Part shown: in pieces, positions 5,658 to 56,641 of the stretch
Layout: every line of letters starts with the position of its first letter
Numbering within the stretch: position 1 is the stretch's first letter
Source of the DNA: Actinomycetota bacterium
Lineage (GTDB): Bacteria > Actinomycetota > Nitriliruptoria > Nitriliruptorales > Nitriliruptoraceae
NCBI GenBank assembly: GCA_019347575.1
Contig: JAHWKY010000003.1
Span: forward strand, 124,001 to 188,000
Length of the DNA: 64,000 nucleotides
Reading direction: 5' to 3'
Notes under the pieces: model-generated
The model's database searches: none
What the model was told of the DNA's origin: nothing
What the model saw: the letters and a program-made list of their open reading frames with translations, nothing else
Position numbers and translations under genes: made by a program

Positions 5658-8600
5658 ATGGTTGAAGCATCGAACCTCTCCTTCGCGTACGCACCTTTCC
5701 CCCTCCTGACCGGCTTCCGACGGGCCCTCATCGTGCTCCTCGCGGCGGGTGCTCTGCTCGTGGTCGGAGCGTGGCGTGCGGAAGCGGTACCCGGCAACGA
5801 CGCCTTCGCCTATGCCGCATCTGTCGGTCCGGCTATCCCGACCTCGGTGTCCGCCGATACGGTCGGGGCGACCACCGAGCCCGACGAGCCCCTGCACTGC
5901 GACATGGACGCGACCCTGTGGTACGCGTTCACGCCCTCGACGTCGGGCGTGGTCGTCATCGACACGGTCGGCAGCGGCTTCGACACCGTTCTCGCCGTGT
6001 TCGACGGTGACCCCTTCGCCGGCGATCCCAGCGCCCCGACGCACCTGATCGATTGCAACGACGACTTCCACGACCTCCAGTCGCAGGTCACGGTCGAAGT
6101 CACGTCCGGAACCACCTACCGCATCCAGGTCGGCGGATGGTCGGGTGACACCGGAGCGCTGACCCTGAACCTCGCTGAGGCGCCGGGTGGCGTGATCTCG
6201 GGCACGGTCACGGATGCGGCCACCGGGGCGCTGCTCGCGGGCATCTGCGTCGAAACGTGGGGCGAGACCACCATCGGCTACGGCTCCGACGTCACCGACG
6301 CTACCGGCTCCTACACGCTCGGCGGGCTCTCCCCCGACAGCTACCGCGTGTACCTCTACGACTGCGGTGGTGGCGGCTACATCGCCGAGTACCACCAGAA
6401 CGCGCCCGACTGGGAGTCGGCAACGCTGGTCGTCCTCGGCGACGGCGAGCACGTCACGGTCAACGAGGACCTGTCGACTGGGGGGTCGATCTTCGGCCAG
6501 GTCACCGAGGCTGGCACCACCACCGGCATCGAGAACGTGTGCGTCACCGCCCACGATCCCGACCTCGGTCTGTGGAGCTACGGCACCACCGATGCGAACG
6601 GTGACTACGTCATCGGTGGCGTCGAGGACGGGTCGTACACCGTGTACTTCACTGTCTGCGACACCGGGCCGTTCATCCCCGAGTACTTCGACGACGCCGC
6701 CGACGCGACGACCGCGACCCGCGTCGCCGTGAGCTCGGGCGCGGCGACGGAGGTCGACGAGGACCTGTCGCGCGGAGGCGTGATCCATGGGATCGTCTCC
6801 GCCGCGGGCGGGGGTGGCGCCATCGGGAACGTCTGTGTACACGTCTACGGCGAGAACACCGGGGTGTGGACCACCGCGTACACGGACGAGGCCGGTCAGT
6901 ACGAGACCGAGGGCCTGCCCGCGGACAACTACCGCCTCGAGTTCATCGACTGCTCCGGTGTCGGTTACCTCACCGAGTACTACGACGAGCACCGCGACTG
7001 GCTCGACTCCGATCTCGTCTCGCTCGCGTTGGGGCAGATGCAGGCGATCAACGAGGATCTCAGCCTCGGCGGCACCATCACGGGTCACGTCACCGATACC
7101 ACGACGGGAGACCCGATCGAGTTCGTGTGCGTGTCGGTGGAGGATGACGCCGGGATCTGGGGCTCGGACGTAACCGACATGATTGGCCACTACGAGGTGC
7201 CGGCGCTGTACCCGGGCATGTACAAGGTCCACTTCTCCGACTGCGGGGGCGGCGGCTACGGCGACGAGTGGTACAACGACCAGACCACCTTCGAGACGGC
7301 CGACGCCGTGGAGGTCTTCGCGAACATGCTCACGCATGTCGAAGAGGACCTGAGCTCGGGTGGGCGAATCGAAGGTGTCATCACCGACGCCGGAACGACG
7401 GACACCCTGGTCGACATCTGCGTCGACGTCACCGGCAACCTGACCGGTCACTACGGGTTCGACGCCACCGGTGCTGACGGCCACTACTCCATCGGCGGGC
7501 TCCCCGCCGACGACTACCGCATCCACTTCTACGACTGCGGTGGCCTGGGCTACCACGAGGAGTACTGGGACGAGCAGCCCGACTGGGCCAGCGCCCACCT
7601 CCAGCCGGTTGGCGAGAACCAGACCGTCACGATCGACGAGGACCTCGTGGCGCTCGGCCGCATCGCGGGCACCCTGGTGGATGCCGCGGACGGCGTGACG
7701 CCAGCCCAGGGCGTATGCGCGTGGGCCGTCGACGTCCTGGGCGGGGGCTGGTACGGGGCCAACCCCAGCGACGAGTCCGGCGGATACCTCATAACGGGCC
7801 TGCCCGACGGTGACTACAAGGTCCTCTTCGAGGACTGCCTCGACGACTACTGGCTGTCCGAGTGGTACGCCGACGCTGCCGACGAGACGTCCGCCACCCC
7901 CGTGTCCGTGGTGCAAGGCGTCACCACCTCCGTGGACGAGGACCTCGTCGCAGGTGGTCGGCTCGGAGGCACCGTGCTCTCGGATCTCACCGGCAACGGC
8001 GTCGACGGCATCTGCATCGACATCCACGACACCGGCGACCCGGTGGCGCGCGACAGCGCCTGGACGGGGTGGGACGGCGCCTGGCAGAGCAGCGTGCTGC
8101 CAGCCGGGGACTACCAGCTGTTCCTCAGCGACTGCACCCGCATGCGCTACCACGACGAGTGGTACGACGACGCAGCCGACCAGACCGGCGCGGCCGAGGT
8201 CGCCGTCATCGGCGGCCAGGTCACCGACGTGACCGAGAGCCTGTTCGCGGACAACGTCGCGCCCGATGCGGTGGAAGATGTCTTCGACGTGCTGAAGAAC
8301 CGTCAGGCCACCCTCTCGCCCCTCGACAACGACACCGATGGTGACGGTGATGGGCTGACGATCACCGCCGTCGAGACGGCCGACGCGGCCGAGCACGGCG
8401 TGGTCTCCCACGACGGCTCCACGATCACGTACGTGCCCGCGGCCGGCTTCCTCGGCAGCGACACCTTCGACTACACCGTCGACGACGGCTTCGGGGGGAC
8501 CGACACCGCGACCATCACGGTGACCGTCGCCGACTGCCCGGACCTCACGCCGGGCATCGACGACGCTGGACTCGTCACCGGCTACGAGTGGGTCGAGTGC

Positions 8601-11600
8601 AGTGCCATCGATGCCAACGGCCTGAGCCCCCAGGTCACCAGCCACTTCCCTGTGGTCGGTGACTCCATGGGACTGATGACCAGCGGCGACCGGGCGCTCG
8701 CCCCGACCGCCAACGACGGAGGCGGCGACGGGCGGGACAACGCCTGGAGCGCGCGCGGCGCGAACGACCCGTCGATACTGCGGCTCGACCTCGATGTCCC
8801 CGACGGCGGCACGTGCCTCGCGATGCACGTCGCGTTCATGTCCGAGGAGTACCCGGAGTACGTGGGGAGCGGGTACAACGACGCGTTCCTCGCCGAGCTC
8901 GACGCGACCACCTGGTCGGTGAGCGACAGTGTCATCACCGCTCCCGACAACTTCGCGTTGGCTCCCGGTGGAGACCTGCTCTCCATCAACAGCGTCTTCT
9001 TCGACGGCGCTCGCGCCATCGTCGACAACGGCACCACCTACGACGGCATGACCGCGCAGCTGCGCGTCCAGACTCCGGTCACCCCGGGTGAGCACAGCCT
9101 GTTCCTGACCATCTTCGACCAAGGCGACGGCATCTACGATTCGGCCGCGTTCGTCGACGATCTCCACGTCGAGAGCGACCCGGAGGGGGGCTGCACCGCA
9201 GGTGTCAACGCGCTGCCCGAGGCTGAGGACAACACCGCGGCGACGGACGAGGACACCCACGTCGACATCGATGTGCTCGCCAACGACAGCGACGCCGACC
9301 TCGACCCGCTCACGATCGTGGCGGTCGACGACCCGGCACACGGCACGGCCACCATCGTCAGCGGCCAGGTGCGCTACGTGCCTGACACGAACTGGTTCGG
9401 CACGGAGGACCCGTTCACCTACACCATCGCCGACGCCTTCGGTGGGTTCGCCAGCGCCACGATCAACGTCGATGTCGCCCCGGTGAACGACGCCCCGGTG
9501 GCTGACGATCTCGGGGAGACCACCGACGAGGACACGCCCGTCGATGTCACGCTGACCGCCAGCGACGTCGAGGGCGATCCGTTCACGTTCTCGATCGTCG
9601 ACGGGCCGGCCAGCGGCATCCTGTCCCCCATCGTGGCCGGAGTGGTGACCTACACGCCCGCTGCGGACACGAACGGGATGGACTCGTTCACCTACCGCGC
9701 CTCGGATGCGGACGATGGCCCGATCGCGACGGTGACCCTGGACGTCACGGCGGTCAACGATGCCCCCGATGCGGTCGATGACGGGGAGGGCACGGACGAG
9801 GACGTCGCGGTCGACGTGGCCGTGCTGGCCAACGACTCCGACGTCGACCTCGTCCACGAGGGCGACACGCTCACGGTTACCGGCGTCAGCGATCCCGCCA
9901 ACGGCACGGTGTCGATCGCCGTGGACGGGCAGTCGGTGTCCTACACGCCCGACCCGGACTGGTTCGGCGAGGACACGTTCACCTACACGCTCTCCGACGC
10001 CGATGGTGCGATGGACACGGCCACGGTGACGGTGACGGTGAACCCGGTCAACGACGCGCCGGTGGCCGACGACCTCGGGGCGATCACCGACGAGGACACC
10101 GCGGTCGATGTCACACTGACGGCCAACGACGTCGAGGGCGATCCGTTCGTGTTCTCGATCGTCGTCGGGCCGGCCAGCGGCACGCTGTCGCCCATCGGGG
10201 CTGGGGCCTCGGTCGTGACCTACACGCCCGACGCGGACGCGAACGGGATGGACTCGTTCACCTACCGCGCCTCGGATGCCGACGATGGCCCGATCGCGAC
10301 GGTGACCCTGGACGTCACGCCGGTGAATGACGCGCCGGTGGCGAGCCCTGCGGAGGAGACGACGGCGGAGGACACGCCGCTGGAGGGTGCACTGCTCGCC
10401 ACGGATGTCGACGGCGACGAGCTGAGCTACGTCGTCGTGGCTCCGCCTGCTCACGGTGAGGTGGTGCTGGGTGTGGGTGAGGCTTTCACGTACACGCCGC
10501 ACGTGGATTACAACGGCGCGGACTCGTTCACCTTCAAGGCGAACGATGGTGTAGCGGACTCCAACGTGGCTGCGGTGTCCATCACGGTCACGCCCGTCAA
10601 CGATGCACCTGAGGCCGCGGACAACCTCGCGTGGGTCGTGGAGGAGGACGCTTCCGTGGTGATCATGATGGAGGCGGGAGACGTCGAGGACGATCCGCTG
10701 ACGTTCTCGATCGTGGCCGGCCCGGAGCACGGTGGGCTGTCGGTGGTGGACGGTAATCAGGTCACCTACACACCTGTTGCGGACTACAGCGGATCGGACT
10801 CGTTCACTTTCAGGGCCAACGATGGCGGGCTGGACTCCAACGTCGCCACCATCGGCATCGATGTCACCCCGGTCAACGACGCCCCGACTGTCGACGAGGT
10901 CGAGGTCGGGACCAGCCAGAACTCTCCGGTCCAGGTGATCCTCGTCGGTGCCGACGTCGACAACGACCCCTTGGTCTTCTCGATCGTTTCCGGCCCGAGT
11001 AGCGGCACGTTGGGACCCGTCTCGGGGAACCAGGTGACGTACACGCCCGACGACGGCTACTTCGGTCCTGACTCGTTCACCTTCAAGGCCAACGACGGGA
11101 CCGTGGATTCCGGCAGTGCGACCGTGTCGGTCACCGTTCTCGAGAACAGCGCGCCGGTCGCTTCAGCGGTGGAGGCGTCGACTGCCGAGGACACTGCGAA
11201 GCAACTGACGCTGCCGGCATCGGACGCGGATGACGACTCGCTGACCTGGTCGATCGTGTCCGCGCCCGTGCACGGCGACCTCGGAGCGCTGGTCGGCAAC
11301 GTGGTCACGTACACCCCGGACCCTGACTACAACGGGACGGACTCCTTCACGTTCAAGGCGAACGATGGGCTGTCCGACTCGAACGTCGCCACCGTGGACA
11401 TCACGGTCACGCCGGTCAACGACGCCCCGGAGGCGGCACCCAACACCTACGAGGTCGATGAGGACTCATCGGTCGTGGTGGTGCTGGAGGCTGGCGACGT
11501 CGAGGACGATCCGTTGACGTTCTCCATCGTCGCTGGCCCCGACCACGGTTCGCTGTCGTCAGTGTCAGGTGGCGAGGTGACTTACACGCCGGACGCCGAC

Positions 11601-32564: not shown

Positions 32565-32957
32565 GTGCCGGGTCGGCCCGACGATCCGACGGTCCGCCTC
32601 GAACGGTGGGATGGACCGGTCGCGTCGGACGACCCCGACGCCAACTTCAAGCGTGAGGTGGCCGCCTACAGCCAGCAGGACCCCCTGTTCACCCTGAGGA
32701 ACATGGCGCGCAACCTCGACCTGCCGGTCGGGGCGCTGGCCCGGTACGTGCTGGCGAAGTGGGCCGCGGCCGGGAGCGAGGCACTGCTCGAACTCGGCCC
32801 GTCGGTCGTCGATCGCATGAGCGCGGCGATCGCGCAGGCCGAGGAGGCGGGCAGCGAGGCAGCGCGACTGGAGGCGTACGAACAGCTCCGTCAGGTCATC
32901 TCGTGGCTGCGCATCCCGCTCGATGACCCCGACGTCAACCCTGCCGGTGGTGCTTAG
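32565..32957 (+). CDS. DUF6027-like small protein
   Basis: 130 residues, soluble, acidic, largely helical. The middle SDDPDANFKREVAAYSQQDPLFTLRNMARNLDLPVGALARYVLAKWAA looks like an N-terminal strand plus a helix-turn-helix-like bundle with a regulator-like pattern (LARYVLAKWA); this resembles actinobacterial DUF6027 proteins of unknown function. The rest (about 75-115) is an amphipathic helix. GTG 32565 starts one base after the thiolase stop, so the two are co-transcribed and probably coupled. It converges with the LuxR-type regulator, sharing four bases at the 3' ends. Confidence 0.65.
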   Translation: MPGRPDDPTVRLERWDGPVASDDPDANFKREVAAYSQQDPLFTLRNMARNLDLPVGALARYVLAKWAAAGSEALLELGPSVVDRMSAAIAQAEEAGSEAARLEAYEQLRQVISWLRIPLDDPDVNPAGGA

Positions 32958-33640
32958 CGGATCAGGTTGAGCCGGAAGCCGCGGGCGACCGCACCGGTCC
33001 GGTCGGGAACGTCGAGCTTCGCCAGCAGGTTCTGCACGTGCGTCTTGACCGTCCTGGCGGACAGGTCGAGCCGCTTGGCGATCCCCTGGTTGGTCAGGCC
33101 CTCGGCGAGGAGCTGGAGAACCTCGAGCTCGCGCGGTGTCAGCACCGAAGCCGGCGCCTCCGCCCCCGTCGCGGGACGCCACGAACCTGCCAGCTGCATC
33201 GCGACCTGGGGCGACACGACCCGCTCACCGGCCGCGGTGCGGGCGACGGCGTCACGGATGTCCTCTTCGGTGGCTGTCGTCAGGAGGAAGCTGTCCACCC
33301 CGGCGATCACCGCCTCGCGCAGGTCGATCACGGTCGAGCCGTCGGCCAGGACGAGTACCCGCAGATCTTCGGAGAGCGCCTTCGCGGTGGCGATGGCGTG
33401 GAACGGATCGGGGTCGTTCTCCCGCACGGCGACGATGAGCACGTCGGGGCGGTGGCGCTCCACCGCGGCGACGGCGTCGCTGATGGCCACACCCTCGGTC
33501 AGGTCGATGTGCTCGCTGCCGGAGAGGATGGCACGGATGCCGGCGTGGATCAGGGGACGATCGTCGGCCGCCAGGACGGTCGTGACGATGGCGGCCTGGG
33601 CCACGCGCTGGAACCGTTCCGGCTGTGCCTCTGTCGCCAC
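32954..33640 (-). CDS. NarL/FixJ-type response regulator with degenerate receiver
   Basis: 228 residues. Receiver-like domain (about 18-145) plus a C-terminal LuxR helix-turn-helix (about 165-225: LTPRELEVLQLLAEGLTNQGIAKRL, ARTVKTHVQNLLAKL). The acidic pair D26-D27 is present. The phosphoacceptor position, however, is alanine (PDVLIVAVREN, A71) and the conserved lysine is threonine (SFLLTTA). The domain therefore cannot accept phosphate in the usual way and is probably an atypical, ligand- or partner-controlled receiver. GTG 33640 has GGAGG at 5 bases. No kinase gene is adjacent; it is divergent from the coiled-coil gene. Confidence 0.85.
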   Translation of the reverse strand: MATEAQPERFQRVAQAAIVTTVLAADDRPLIHAGIRAILSGSEHIDLTEGVAISDAVAAVERHRPDVLIVAVRENDPDPFHAIATAKALSEDLRVLVLADGSTVIDLREAVIAGVDSFLLTTATEEDIRDAVARTAAGERVVSPQVAMQLAGSWRPATGAEAPASVLTPRELEVLQLLAEGLTNQGIAKRLDLSARTVKTHVQNLLAKLDVPDRTGAVARGFRLNLIR

Positions 33641-33860: not shown

Positions 33861-35510
33861 GTGAGCGGCAAGGACGGACCCGACCTGGAACTCGACGTCA
33901 GCGATGTGCTGGCCGAGATCGGGGCGGAGGAGGCAGTCGCGCGTCTGGAGGCCCGGGTCGCCGACCTCGAGCAGGACCTCGAACGCGCCGGCACCAGGAA
34001 CGAGGAGGCCGAGCGGGCCCGTGCGGGCGAACTCGAGGTCATGCGCGCCCGCGTCGACGACGCGCTCGAGCTCGTGCGCGAGACCATCGAGGACCACAGC
34101 TCCATGTGGCGACGGATCGAGGAGCGCCTGGACGAGGCCGCCGACGCGACACGGGAGTCGGTCGGTTCGGCGCTCACAACGGTCCGTGACGACCTCTCCC
34201 CCAAGCTCGATCGCGCGACCGCCGAGCTCGACACGACCGTCGCCCGCATCACCGGACAGATCCAGGCCGCACGTGACGACCTCGAGGGTCGTGTGACGAC
34301 GATCGAAGGCGTCGTCGCGGAGGCCAGGACCTCGCTCCAGGACACGGTCGAGGAGCTGCGCGCCGAGCAGGTCGATCGGGACGAGACGCTCGACTCGGCG
34401 CTCACCGAGGTCGCGGCGCGCGCCGACGGGCGGCTCGCCGAACTCGAGACCAGCTTCGGGAAGCGGCACGACGACCTGGCGACGAGGATCGACGCGCTGC
34501 GTCGTGAGCTCGATGGTGCGGCGGGCGAGCTCCGCGCATCGATGAACCTCAAGGCCCAGGAGGCCACCGAGAGCGTCGAGACGTTGCGCCACGAACTGGA
34601 GGAGACCTACGAGCGGCACGACGTGGCCGCGGCGGAGCTCGAACGACGGTGGATCGAGGGGACACGCGAGATCGCACGACTGGTCGAGGACCACGCGGCC
34701 GCCGCGCGTGAAGCGGTCCGCGAGGAGCGCGTCTCACGCGAGGAAGCCGTCCACGCAGCGGTCATGAAGACCGACGACCTCGCGACCCGGGTCACCGAGC
34801 TCGACGGGCGGATCGCCAGCGAGTCGGCGCGCTCGAAGGGGCCGATCGAGGAGCTCCGCAACCGTGCCGACGAGCTCACCAAGCGTCTCGAGGCGACCCA
34901 GTCGCGCCTCACGACGCTGGCGGAGGAACTCGGCAGCGGCATCACCGATCGCGTCGCGACCGTGACGGCCGAGGTCGTCGCGCTGCGTGAGGCCATCGCG
35001 CCTCACGAACAGACCGCGGCCGGTCTCGCCCACCTGCACGGACGGGTCCGTGAGCTCGCCGCCCGCATCGATGCCATGGACCACCCCGTCACGCCCGGTG
35101 TCGACGACACGCGCGTCGCAGCGATCGAGGACAAGCTCGGTGCGATCCGTCGTGACCTGGCGACCCTCGCCGGAGGCGTCGGTGCCGCCGTGGAGCAGAC
35201 CCAAGGCGTTGGGGCGCGACTGGCCGAGCTGCAGGAGTCGGTCCGGGCCCAGGGCGCGCTGACGATCGAGGTGCGTGAGCTGACCGCGCGCACCTCCGAA
35301 CTCGCTGCGCGTCTCGACGAGACCGACAAGCTGGCCCGGGCCGCCGGTCAGGCCATCGCGAGCGCCGTACGACGGGCGCGAGCATCGCAGCCCCGGGTGC
35401 CCCCGGTCCGACCTCTGCCGGAAGGCGCGCCCAGCGTCGCCGCCGCGGAACGGCCGCTGCTGTTCAGGCCGGAGCCGCCACCTACGGGCGGCGCAGATCC
35501 TTCACCGTGA
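33861..35510 (+). CDS. Long coiled-coil protein, function unknown
   Basis: About 549 residues, almost wholly predicted alpha-helical coiled coil (about 15-505) with long charged heptads such as RLEARVADLEQDLER and a tail rich in Pro/Ala. No signal peptide or membrane segment is seen, so it is likely cytoplasmic. It resembles SMC-like or apolipoprotein-like scaffold proteins in composition only; I do not recognise a family. GTG 33861 has CTGGAGG at 7 bases; the frame is open far upstream to 32967 but that part overlaps the regulator on the other strand. Its 3' end overlaps greA convergently by 29 bases. Confidence 0.7.
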   Translation: MSGKDGPDLELDVSDVLAEIGAEEAVARLEARVADLEQDLERAGTRNEEAERARAGELEVMRARVDDALELVRETIEDHSSMWRRIEERLDEAADATRESVGSALTTVRDDLSPKLDRATAELDTTVARITGQIQAARDDLEGRVTTIEGVVAEARTSLQDTVEELRAEQVDRDETLDSALTEVAARADGRLAELETSFGKRHDDLATRIDALRRELDGAAGELRASMNLKAQEATESVETLRHELEETYERHDVAAAELERRWIEGTREIARLVEDHAAAAREAVREERVSREEAVHAAVMKTDDLATRVTELDGRIASESARSKGPIEELRNRADELTKRLEATQSRLTTLAEELGSGITDRVATVTAEVVALREAIAPHEQTAAGLAHLHGRVRELAARIDAMDHPVTPGVDDTRVAAIEDKLGAIRRDLATLAGGVGAAVEQTQGVGARLAELQESVRAQGALTIEVRELTARTSELAARLDETDKLARAAGQAIASAVRRARASQPRVPPVRPLPEGAPSVAAAERPLLFRPEPPPTGGADPSP

Positions 35511-35943
35511 TGTCGAGTCCTCCGCCGGGCGTCTCGGCTTTCACGGAGTCGCCGGGCTTCGCGCCGAGGACCGCCTTGCCGATCGGCGAGGACGTCGACA
35601 GCACCTCGTACTCGTCGTGGCTGTCCTCGCGGCTGCCGACGAAGTAGGTCTCCTCGTCGCCCTCGACGAGCAGGGTAACGATCAGCCCCGCGGCGACCTC
35701 GTCGGCCGGTGGGGTCTCGCCGATCCGCGCGTCACGGAGCAGCTCCTCGAGCTGGCGGATGCGGGCCTCCATCCGGCCCTGCTCCTCCTTCGCGGAGTGG
35801 TACTCGGCGTTCTCCTTGAGGTCGCCGTGGGCGCGAGCCTCCTCGATCGCCGCCGTGATCGAGCTGCGGCCCTGCGTCTTCAACTCAGCCAGCTCGGCCT
35901 GCAGACGGTCGTAGGCCTCCTGGGTCAGCCACGTCTCGGCCAC
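35482..35943 (-). CDS. greA: Transcription elongation factor GreA
   Basis: 153 residues. N-terminal antiparallel coiled coil (about 8-75, LTQEAYDRLQAELAEL) with the catalytic loop ARAHGDLKENAEYHSAKEEQ. The acidic tip is D-L-K-E-N, matching DLSENAEY-type motifs. The C-terminal FKBP-like domain runs about 82-153, with SPIGKAVLGAKPGD. It rescues backtracked RNA polymerase by stimulating transcript cleavage. GTG 35943 has AGGAG at 7 bases. It is convergent with the coiled-coil gene, overlapping by 29 bases. Confidence 0.95.
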   Translation of the reverse strand: MAETWLTQEAYDRLQAELAELKTQGRSSITAAIEEARAHGDLKENAEYHSAKEEQGRMEARIRQLEELLRDARIGETPPADEVAAGLIVTLLVEGDEETYFVGSREDSHDEYEVLSTSSPIGKAVLGAKPGDSVKAETPGGGLDITVKDLRRP

Positions 35944-54695: not shown

Positions 54696-55382
54696 CCCAA
54701 GGTGCTCCTGGTCGAGGACGGAACCTCGATCGCTCAAGGGCTCAGCGTGACGCTCGAGTCCGAGGGCTTCACCGTCACCTGGGTCAAGGACGGTCGCGAC
54801 GCGGTGCCGACCTGGGAACGGGTCCGGCCGGACGTCGTCCTCCTCGACCTCATGCTCCCCGAGGTGTCGGGCACCGAGGTCTGTCGACAGCTCCGTCGGC
54901 GCAGCCGGGTTCCGATCATCATGGTCACGGCCCGTGATAGCGAGGTCGATCGCGTCGTCGGTCTCGAACTGGGCGCGGACGACTACGTGATCAAGCCCTT
55001 CTCCAGCCGTGAACTGGTCGCGCGCATCCGGGCGGTTCTCCGTCGCAGCGGCGAACAGGTCGGCGTGGACGTCGACGCTCCGTCCGAGGCGGCAGGTGTC
55101 CGGGTGGACCGTGCGCGTCACGAGGTACTGGTGGACGGTGCAGCGGTGGAGCTGCCACCCAAGGAGTTCGATCTCCTCGCGCTGCTGGTGGACAACGCCG
55201 GCCGGGTGCTGACGCGCGACCAGCTCATCGACAGCGTGTGGGGTTCCGACTACGTGGGCGACACGAAGACGCTCGACGTGCACATCCGTCGCCTGCGCAC
55301 GCGTGTGGAAGCGGATCCCCACGAGCCCAGCCGCATCCTGACGGTGCGCGGTGTCGGCTACCGCTTCGCCGACGACAGGTAG
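54693..55382 (+). CDS. OmpR/PhoB-family response regulator (RegX3/PhoP-like)
   Basis: 229 residues. Receiver domain (about 1-120) with D9, phosphoacceptor D52 in VLLDLMLP, T81 in MVTARD and K103 in VIKPF, and a winged-helix output domain (about 135-229) with KEFDLLALLVDNAGRVLTRDQL and RTRVEADPHEPSRILTVRGVGYRF. Together with the next gene, a kinase, it is the probable phosphate-starvation regulator that binds the PHO box before pstS. ATG 54693. Its stop is 20 bases before the kinase start. Confidence 0.93.
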   Translation: MPKVLLVEDGTSIAQGLSVTLESEGFTVTWVKDGRDAVPTWERVRPDVVLLDLMLPEVSGTEVCRQLRRRSRVPIIMVTARDSEVDRVVGLELGADDYVIKPFSSRELVARIRAVLRRSGEQVGVDVDAPSEAAGVRVDRARHEVLVDGAAVELPPKEFDLLALLVDNAGRVLTRDQLIDSVWGSDYVGDTKTLDVHIRRLRTRVEADPHEPSRILTVRGVGYRFADDR

Positions 55383-55402: not shown

Positions 55403-56641
55403 TTGCTCGTCCTCTCGGCGTTGGCGATCGTCGCCGTCATCTGGCTGGCGGTGCGCTCGCACGAACGGGCGAGGAGGATCATCGAGCTCGTCAACCCAGC
55501 GCTCGACGGAGACGCCTCGACGGCGTCCTTGGGTGGCCGAGGAGTGTGGCGGGAGGTCGGCACGAGCATCGCTGCCATCGTTTCCAGCCACGAGCAGCTC
55601 GCTCAGGAGCTGCAACGACAACAGCCGTGGCGGCGCCAACTCGTCGACGCGATCACCCTCCCGGCGCTGCTGTTCGACGAGGACGGTTACCTGCTCGCAG
55701 CCAACGACGCTTCCGCACGCAGCTTCGGTGCGACCGATGCGGGGCGTCTGACCGCGCTTCAGGCGCTCGGCAGCACCGCGCTCGCGGACGCGGTCGCGCT
55801 CGCGCGCGAGAGCCAGCGACCGGTCGAACTCGACGCGCGCGTGGCGGACGATCGTGAGGTCTTCGGCGTGGCTTCCCCGGTCGGCGACGAGACGCTGTTG
55901 ATCGTGTCCGATCGCACCGCGCAGCGGCGGCTGAGCGAGGTACGCCGTGACTTCGTCGTCAACGCGTCCCACGAGCTCAAGAGTCCCGTCGCGGGCATCC
56001 AGGCCCTGAGCGATGCGTTGCGCCTCACCGTCGACCGCGACCCCGAGCGAGCTCGGGAGTTGAGCGAACGGCTGAGCGATGAAGCGGAGCGGCTGAGCGG
56101 TCTCGTGCATGACTTGCTCGATCTCCGACGCCTCGAGTCGGATCGCGGAGGTGACACCACGCCCGTCGATCTGGTGGCGATCATCGACGATCGCATCGAA
56201 CGGGTCCGTGCGATGGCGGACGCCCGCAACATCACGGTCGAGACCGAGGTTCCCGAGCACGCGGTGGTGGGCGGGGTCGAGGAGGACCTGCGTATCGCCA
56301 TCGGGAACCTGCTCGACAACGCGGTCCAGTACAACCACGACGGGGGACACGTGCTCGTCACGCTGGAACGGGAGGGACCGGGCTACCGCCTACGGCTCCA
56401 GGACACCGGGATCGGCATCCCCAAGCATGACCTCGAGCGTATCTTCGAGCGTTTCTACCGCGTCGACGTCGCCCGTTCCCGCGCGACGGGTGGCACCGGC
56501 CTGGGTCTGTCGCTGGTCCGACACGCGGTCGAGCGCCAGGGCGGCCGGATCACCGTCGAGAGTCTGCTCGGCGAGGGCACGACCATCACCGTGACCCTCC
56601 CGGTGGCGCCCCGGGACGGGGCGAGGGCCGGCGGGAGGTGA
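55403..56641 (+). CDS. Sensor histidine kinase (SenX3/PhoR-like)
   Basis: About 412 residues. One N-terminal membrane helix (about 1-20), a PAS-like region (about 85-175: LPALLFDEDGYLLAANDASARSF), then HisKA with phosphorylated H190 in NASHELKSPVAG and an HATPase_c domain (N-box IAIGNLLDNAVQYN, DTGIGIP, GTGLGLS). Likely senses phosphate status with PstSCAB/PhoU and phosphorylates the preceding regulator. TTG 55403 is the only reasonable start within the gap after the regulator stop; the frame is open upstream but only through that gene. The stop lies in a strong hairpin. Confidence 0.88.
   Translation: MLVLSALAIVAVIWLAVRSHERARRIIELVNPALDGDASTASLGGRGVWREVGTSIAAIVSSHEQLAQELQRQQPWRRQLVDAITLPALLFDEDGYLLAANDASARSFGATDAGRLTALQALGSTALADAVALARESQRPVELDARVADDREVFGVASPVGDETLLIVSDRTAQRRLSEVRRDFVVNASHELKSPVAGIQALSDALRLTVDRDPERARELSERLSDEAERLSGLVHDLLDLRRLESDRGGDTTPVDLVAIIDDRIERVRAMADARNITVETEVPEHAVVGGVEEDLRIAIGNLLDNAVQYNHDGGHVLVTLEREGPGYRLRLQDTGIGIPKHDLERIFERFYRVDVARSRATGGTGLGLSLVRHAVERQGGRITVESLLGEGTTITVTLPVAPRDGARAGGR

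Follow-up and report, generated by a model that had tools for sequence, protein, structure and literature searches.

Among receivers of bacteria about 6% are pseudo-receivers, and the acceptor Asp is absent from about 4% of all receivers (PMC12632262, section 4); this 2025 review calls the switching of pseudo-receivers a mystery. In the ALR/PsR class, as described in PMC4395418 and PMC12632262, a receiver fold that is still matched by Pfam has its acceptor Asp replaced, the first acidic residue and the K-3 aromatic residue are kept, and the second acidic residue is often lost; loss of the D+4 Pro and the D+8 Gly is described as well (PMC12632262, section 7). Many pseudo-receivers dimerise unphosphorylated, and some act by supply or through heterodimers (PMC12632262, sections 16, 18, and 19). 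Among Actinomycetota, the Streptomyces regulators WhiI and BldM are orphan atypical regulators of the NarL/FixJ type; WhiI is described as having a degenerate pocket without the Lys and one residue of the Asp pair, while BldM keeps its pocket (PMC4125116). JadR1 and RedZ, by their description in section 20 of PMC12632262, are actinobacterial atypical receivers working without Asp phosphorylation, and they sit in antibiotic gene clusters.

In this work we analyzed a regulator gene of a Nitriliruptoraceae genome located in a 64,000-nucleotide stretch of DNA, which as a whole is called the window below. The product shares with the ALR/PsR class the receiver fold and Pfam match with a replaced acceptor Asp, as well as the retained first acidic residue (D26) and K-3 aromatic residue (F118); the second acidic residue is often lost among its orthologues, too. 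It differs from ALRs in that (i) the acceptor replacement prevailing among its orthologues, Gly, is a minority one there, 11% (PMC4395418, section 7), and (ii) the Lys and Thr/Ser, usually kept there (70% and 61%, respectively; PMC4395418), are lost here. It is an orphan atypical regulator like WhiI and BldM but, unlike BldM, has not kept the pocket, and no antibiotic gene cluster of the JadR1 or RedZ kind was seen beside it. Taken by itself the gene is unremarkable, since receivers of the same kind make up several per cent of the total; the regulator is a real, conserved and lineage-specific addition to the known pseudo-receiver class.

The gene begins with GTG at position 33640 on the minus strand, with GGAGGA upstream (Table 1). 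Its receiver is recognised by Response_reg (PF00072, residues 22-132) at 31.5 bits against a cut-off of 30.2, and the GerE match of 72.9 bits contains the helix-turn-helix. Structural modelling, proposed in the first-pass annotation, gave an AF2 model from 18 orthologues (mean pLDDT 82.4, pTM 0.58) in which the receiver strands and helices follow the usual order. VraR, LiaR and NarL are the nearest solved relatives, and the isolated predicted receiver matches VraR with a Z of 21.9 and an rmsd of 1.7 over 133 residues. Together with MadR they are the best sequence and fold matches to the regulator; unlike it, all of them carry the phospho-acceptor Asp and the Lys. Assignment to an NCBIfam equivalog was rejected, the scores of all models being far below the cut-off among the best 25 of 32 matches.

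Table 1. Features of the regulator gene and its upstream neighbours (positions in the window)
Feature	Position	Strand	Evidence
CDS, aspartate-less NarL/LuxR-type regulator, 228 aa, GTG start	32954..33640	-	Translation, Pfam
Receiver (pseudo-receiver) domain, residues 21-140	33221..33580	-	Pfam match, AF2 beta/alpha order
D26-D27 codons, metal pair	33560..33565	-	Orthologue alignment
A71 codon, ex-phospho-acceptor	33428..33430	-	VraR alignment, orthologues
N75-D76 codons, beta3-alpha3 loop	33413..33418	-	Orthologues, control regulators
A99 (ex-Thr/Ser) and D100 (T+1) codons	33341..33346	-	Orthologues, control regulators
Residues 104-120, alpha4-beta5, best-conserved 17-residue receiver stretch	33281..33331	-	Conservation, dN/dS
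T121 codon, ex-conserved Lys	33278..33280	-	VraR alignment, orthologues
GerE/LuxR helix-turn-helix DNA-binding domain, residues 165-218	32987..33148	-	Pfam
greA, conserved upstream co-directional neighbour	35482..35943	-	ORFs, Pfam, locus comparison
Coiled-coil gene between greA and regulator	33861..35510	+	Start read by eye

The pocket was compared in 18 orthologues (alignment A1; all counts include the window protein). The first-pass annotation had claimed Ala at the phospho-acceptor site and Thr in place of the conserved Lys, and alignment to VraR places A71 and T121 in exactly these columns, with A99 in that of the Thr/Ser. Among the orthologues, the acceptor site is Gly (16) or Ala (2), so that the proposed check on the conservation of A71 revealed loss of Asp in 18/18; orthologues all carrying Asp, named beforehand as the finding that would speak against the claim, were looked for, and 0/18 had it. 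The Lys site is occupied by Thr (10), Ser (5), Ala (2) or Met (1), with Lys in 0/18, and the Thr/Ser site by Ala (16), Gly (1) or Ser (1), being thus lost in 17/18. Since neither Asp nor Lys occurs at its site in any orthologue, the acceptor change is not a chance substitution, and the description of the protein as an orphan regulator with an atypical receiver devoid of the Asp comes out strengthened. The metal pair, said to remain, does so in the window protein, which has both D26 and D27; its first residue is Asp in 18/18 orthologues, but the second is Asp in only 8, the others having Ala (6), Ser (3) or Gly (1). F118 is kept in 18/18. The D+4 position is Asp in 16, Asn in 1 (N75 of the window protein) and Ala in 1, with Pro in 0/18; D+8 is Thr (12), Ala (5) or Pro (1), with Gly in 0/18; position 76 is Asp in 17/18, and T+1 (D100) is Asp in 17 and Asn in 1. 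Of the marks of a canonical NarL-type regulator the protein therefore has the GerE helix-turn-helix, while Asp, Lys and Thr/Ser (A71, T121, A99) and a nearby kinase are missing; both marks of an aspartate-less receiver, recognition by the receiver profile and absence of the acceptor Asp, are present.

The control set comprised 46 NarL-type regulators, 16 from this genome and 30 from one Streptomyces genome; it was limited to those available as loci, after removal of two duplicates and of short proteins. The acceptor Asp was found in 45/46 and the Lys in 44/46, with Asp at T+1 in 0/46 and an acidic D+4 residue in 1/46. In a group of canonical regulators taken from 13 of the genomes with orthologues, the Asp, Thr and Lys are all retained in 13/13. 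It should be mentioned that one of the 46 control proteins is itself atypical, being a second NarL-type protein of this genome without acceptor Asp and Lys (L162; G000:C25, near 24326).

Other known modes of control were also considered. Cys redox switching of the RitR or HP1021 type uses a Cys in the linker or the alpha1-beta2 loop; the window protein has no Cys (nor do 6 of the 18 orthologue rows), and this type is therefore excluded for it. VpsT-type c-di-GMP binding regulators carry a W[FLM][TS]R motif; by eye, the window translation has none, its sole Trp lying in SWRPAT, and this identity was dropped.

A profile search with A1 revealed the regulator in 17 of the 35 family genomes. When 66 genomes of the class were searched, 18 matches of at least 276 bits were obtained, 17 from the family and one from G035, which alone represented the rest of the order in this search; the next score was just 141 bits, and thus 0/30 of the other class genomes have the regulator. 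In a protein search of 101 genomes, 35 of them from the wider phylum, orthologues scored at least 166 bits and the next best protein 112. A search of genome contigs gave matches at 12 of 21 loci (46-67% over at least 198 residues), 11 titled Nitriliruptoraceae bacterium and one Actinomycetota bacterium, which look like the same assemblies as in the genome set. In a tree of 64 rows the 18 orthologues form one clade with 100/100 support and a long stem (1.13), in which G035 branches first and the window protein next. The reading frame is intact at 18/18 loci. The regulator is absent from 18/35 family genomes, several of which have the flanks intact, and is therefore dispensable. Nothing on it was found in the literature on Nitriliruptor response regulators, Nitriliruptoria pseudo-receivers or greA-linked orphan regulators, and no literature was found on DUF6027.

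L193, which we take to be Streptomyces BldM, falls outside the orthologue clade in this tree, on a long branch that makes its own place unsure. Its DNA-binding domain is the 17th closest of those compared, and the BldM palindrome TCACcCgnncGgGTGA shows no enrichment in the window (6 matches with at most three mismatches vs 10.5 expected). Identity with BldM is thus not supported.

The receiver has dN/dS of 0.16-0.53 in 10 pairs, below 1 in 10/10, and the DNA-binding domain 0.01-0.27, these ratios being rough because several dS values are high. The receiver is thus under purifying selection and therefore used. In four pairs from a single genus, residues 94-123 carry no non-synonymous change; the dN/dS of this segment is below that of the DNA-binding domain in only 6/10 pairs. 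Residues 104-120 rank first of 104 segments of 17 residues, with a mean entropy of 0.30 vs 0.58 for the DNA-binding domain; in the canonical group the same stretch ranks 15th (0.12 vs 0.20). Because this control is constrained too, the alpha4-beta5 conservation is not special to the regulator family, and its value as a distinguishing mark is weakened. Entropy in the regulator family vs the canonical group is 0.97 vs 0.00 for alpha1, 1.47 vs 0.00 for the beta5-alpha5 loop and 1.16 vs 0.20 for beta3. The change special to the family is a relaxed pocket together with a relaxed alpha1. NarL-family receivers dimerise via alpha1-alpha5, and pseudo-receivers mostly via parts of alpha4-beta5-alpha5 (PMC12632262, section 16); a shift of the dimer interface away from alpha1-alpha5 would fit this pattern.

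The recurrent gene order is thiolase, DUF6027, regulator, greA, uppS, phoH. At 18/18 loci (17 compared and the window) greA lies upstream of the regulator on the same strand; it is directly adjacent at 16 of them, 44-305 bp from the conserved receiver core, and in one genus, represented by four loci (L022, L046, L048, L049), the regulator ATG follows the greA stop by 2 bp. The distance is 1.84 kb in the window and 1.44 kb in L050, with an opposite-strand coiled-coil gene between; this spacing and the opposing gene make co-transcription with greA unlikely in the window. The coiled-coil gene of the window encodes about 549 aa, faces the regulator head to head and shares 29 bases with the end of greA; its relative at the same place in L050 has about 30% identity. 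The claim that the regulator is an orphan holds, no HATPase_c being present within about 22 kb. The genome contains 63 HATPase_c matches, one of them on the contig of the regulator, about 22.6 kb away (C3:180276-180608). It corresponds to window positions 56276-56608 (+) and lies close to a canonical receiver at 54702-55031 (+), the two being likely an ordinary two-component pair.

Promoter-like blocks were seen before the regulator in several genomes. In one genus it is preceded by TCACCC and TTTGATA, 32-33 bp apart and exact in 3/4 genomes. At L035, L036, L038 and L039, the blocks AAGATCACCC and GGTT..ATA stand before the start codon, 32-33 bp apart. A scan of eight genomes for TCACCC-N30-36-TTYGATA found it upstream of the regulator in three and just once elsewhere (G000:C88); a regulon defined by a shared promoter block was therefore rejected.

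The acceptor, the Lys and nearly always the Thr/Ser are gone, so that, judging from the sequences, Asp phosphorylation of the regulator is very unlikely. Since the phosphate site is missing from its close relatives as well, the protein is probably a functional regulator under another form of control. It can be hypothesized that the ancestor of a lineage centred on Nitriliruptoraceae already had the receiver turned into an aspartate-less pseudo-receiver and that the regulator would bind DNA without Asp phosphorylation. Its activity may be set by the amount made, the gene being transcribed together with greA where the gap is 2 bp (at least these four genomes) and from a separate promoter in the others, and also by receiver contacts via the constrained alpha4-beta5 surface, with no cognate kinase; the protein would form homodimers or, as in the WhiI/BldM case, heterodimers with a second regulator. 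We give an even chance to this reading, a transcription factor with a pseudo-receiver controlled by supply and/or receiver contacts. These appear to be the simplest routes, followed by ligand control, to which the new acidic positions lend some weight.

Control by a small molecule or metal whose binding in the rebuilt pocket would switch the contact with DNA, as in JadR1 and RedZ, is possible, if somewhat doubtful. A new acidic set surrounds the old pocket (D26 in 18/18, D+4 Asp in 16/18, Asp at residue 76 in 17/18 and at T+1 in 17/18), with the T+1 Asp in 0/46 and an acidic D+4 in 1/46 control regulators, and ligand-bound pseudo-receivers are known, often involving the beta3-alpha3 region (PMC12632262, section 20); however, the window protein has N75 instead of Asp, and the genes beside the regulator (greA, uppS, phoH, thiolase, DUF6027) include no conserved biosynthetic cluster or obvious ligand gene. 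That D26, D+4, position 76 and the T+1 Asp form a conserved acidic site binding a cation or cationic ligand we consider unlikely; if true, the protein would be a NarL-type regulator that senses an ion or metabolite directly, in a soda-lake/saline lineage of actinobacteria. Still less probable is weak phosphorylation on another residue (Ser/Thr, or an Asp such as D76), which would leave the protein a two-component member: the Lys and Thr/Ser catalytic residues are gone, the second metal Asp is lost in 10/18 and no kinase gene lies within about 22 kb, although the beta5-alpha5 loop is rich in Thr/Ser (T121, T122; S/T common in orthologues) and GlnR is reported to be phosphorylated on Ser/Thr (PMC12632262, section 20).

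The coiled-coil and DUF6027 neighbours, suggested as partners in the first-pass annotation, fared badly. DUF6027 is near the regulator at 12/18 loci, the window counted, but it is also beside greA in 6/19 genomes without the regulator, and L043 and L049 lack it although sequence is available for their thiolase side; the coiled-coil gene neighbours the regulator at only 2/18 loci, the window and L050. Relative to the regulator, DUF6027 is convergent and the coiled-coil gene divergent. Neither is consistently co-inherited with the regulator, and both are therefore poor candidates, a dedicated partnership being very improbable. A decaying gene, with the receiver a relic on the way to loss, would account for the patchy presence (17/35 family genomes) and the strong variation of beta2 and alpha2; this is hardly credible and already contradicted by the intact frame at all 18 loci, by dN/dS below 1 in every pair, and by the constrained DNA-binding domain (0.01-0.27) of a 228-aa protein with an intact helix-turn-helix.

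The clade offers a convenient test case, having lost the whole pocket while a matched canonical control exists in the same genomes. Further assets are presence and absence inside one family and natural variants of gene order, with either the 2-bp greA gap or an own promoter-like block.

In family genomes without the regulator, greA was found in 12/18, and in 10 of these 12 it lies on one stretch with thiolase with no orthologue between. The greA-thiolase space of five such genomes contains other ORFs and no receiver, which rules out a hidden diverged copy there. By eye, small ORFs with a membrane-bound look stand beside greA in L107, L108, L109, L113 and L114, as does an ORF resembling a metallo-beta-lactamase fold protein in L107 and L108. 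In two genomes that lack the regulator, G001 and G014, the interval from greA to uppS contains a different, canonical-looking one that carries both Asp and Lys (L106, 9155-9847, and L112, about 8262-8870), the one in L106 being followed by a kinase-like ORF.
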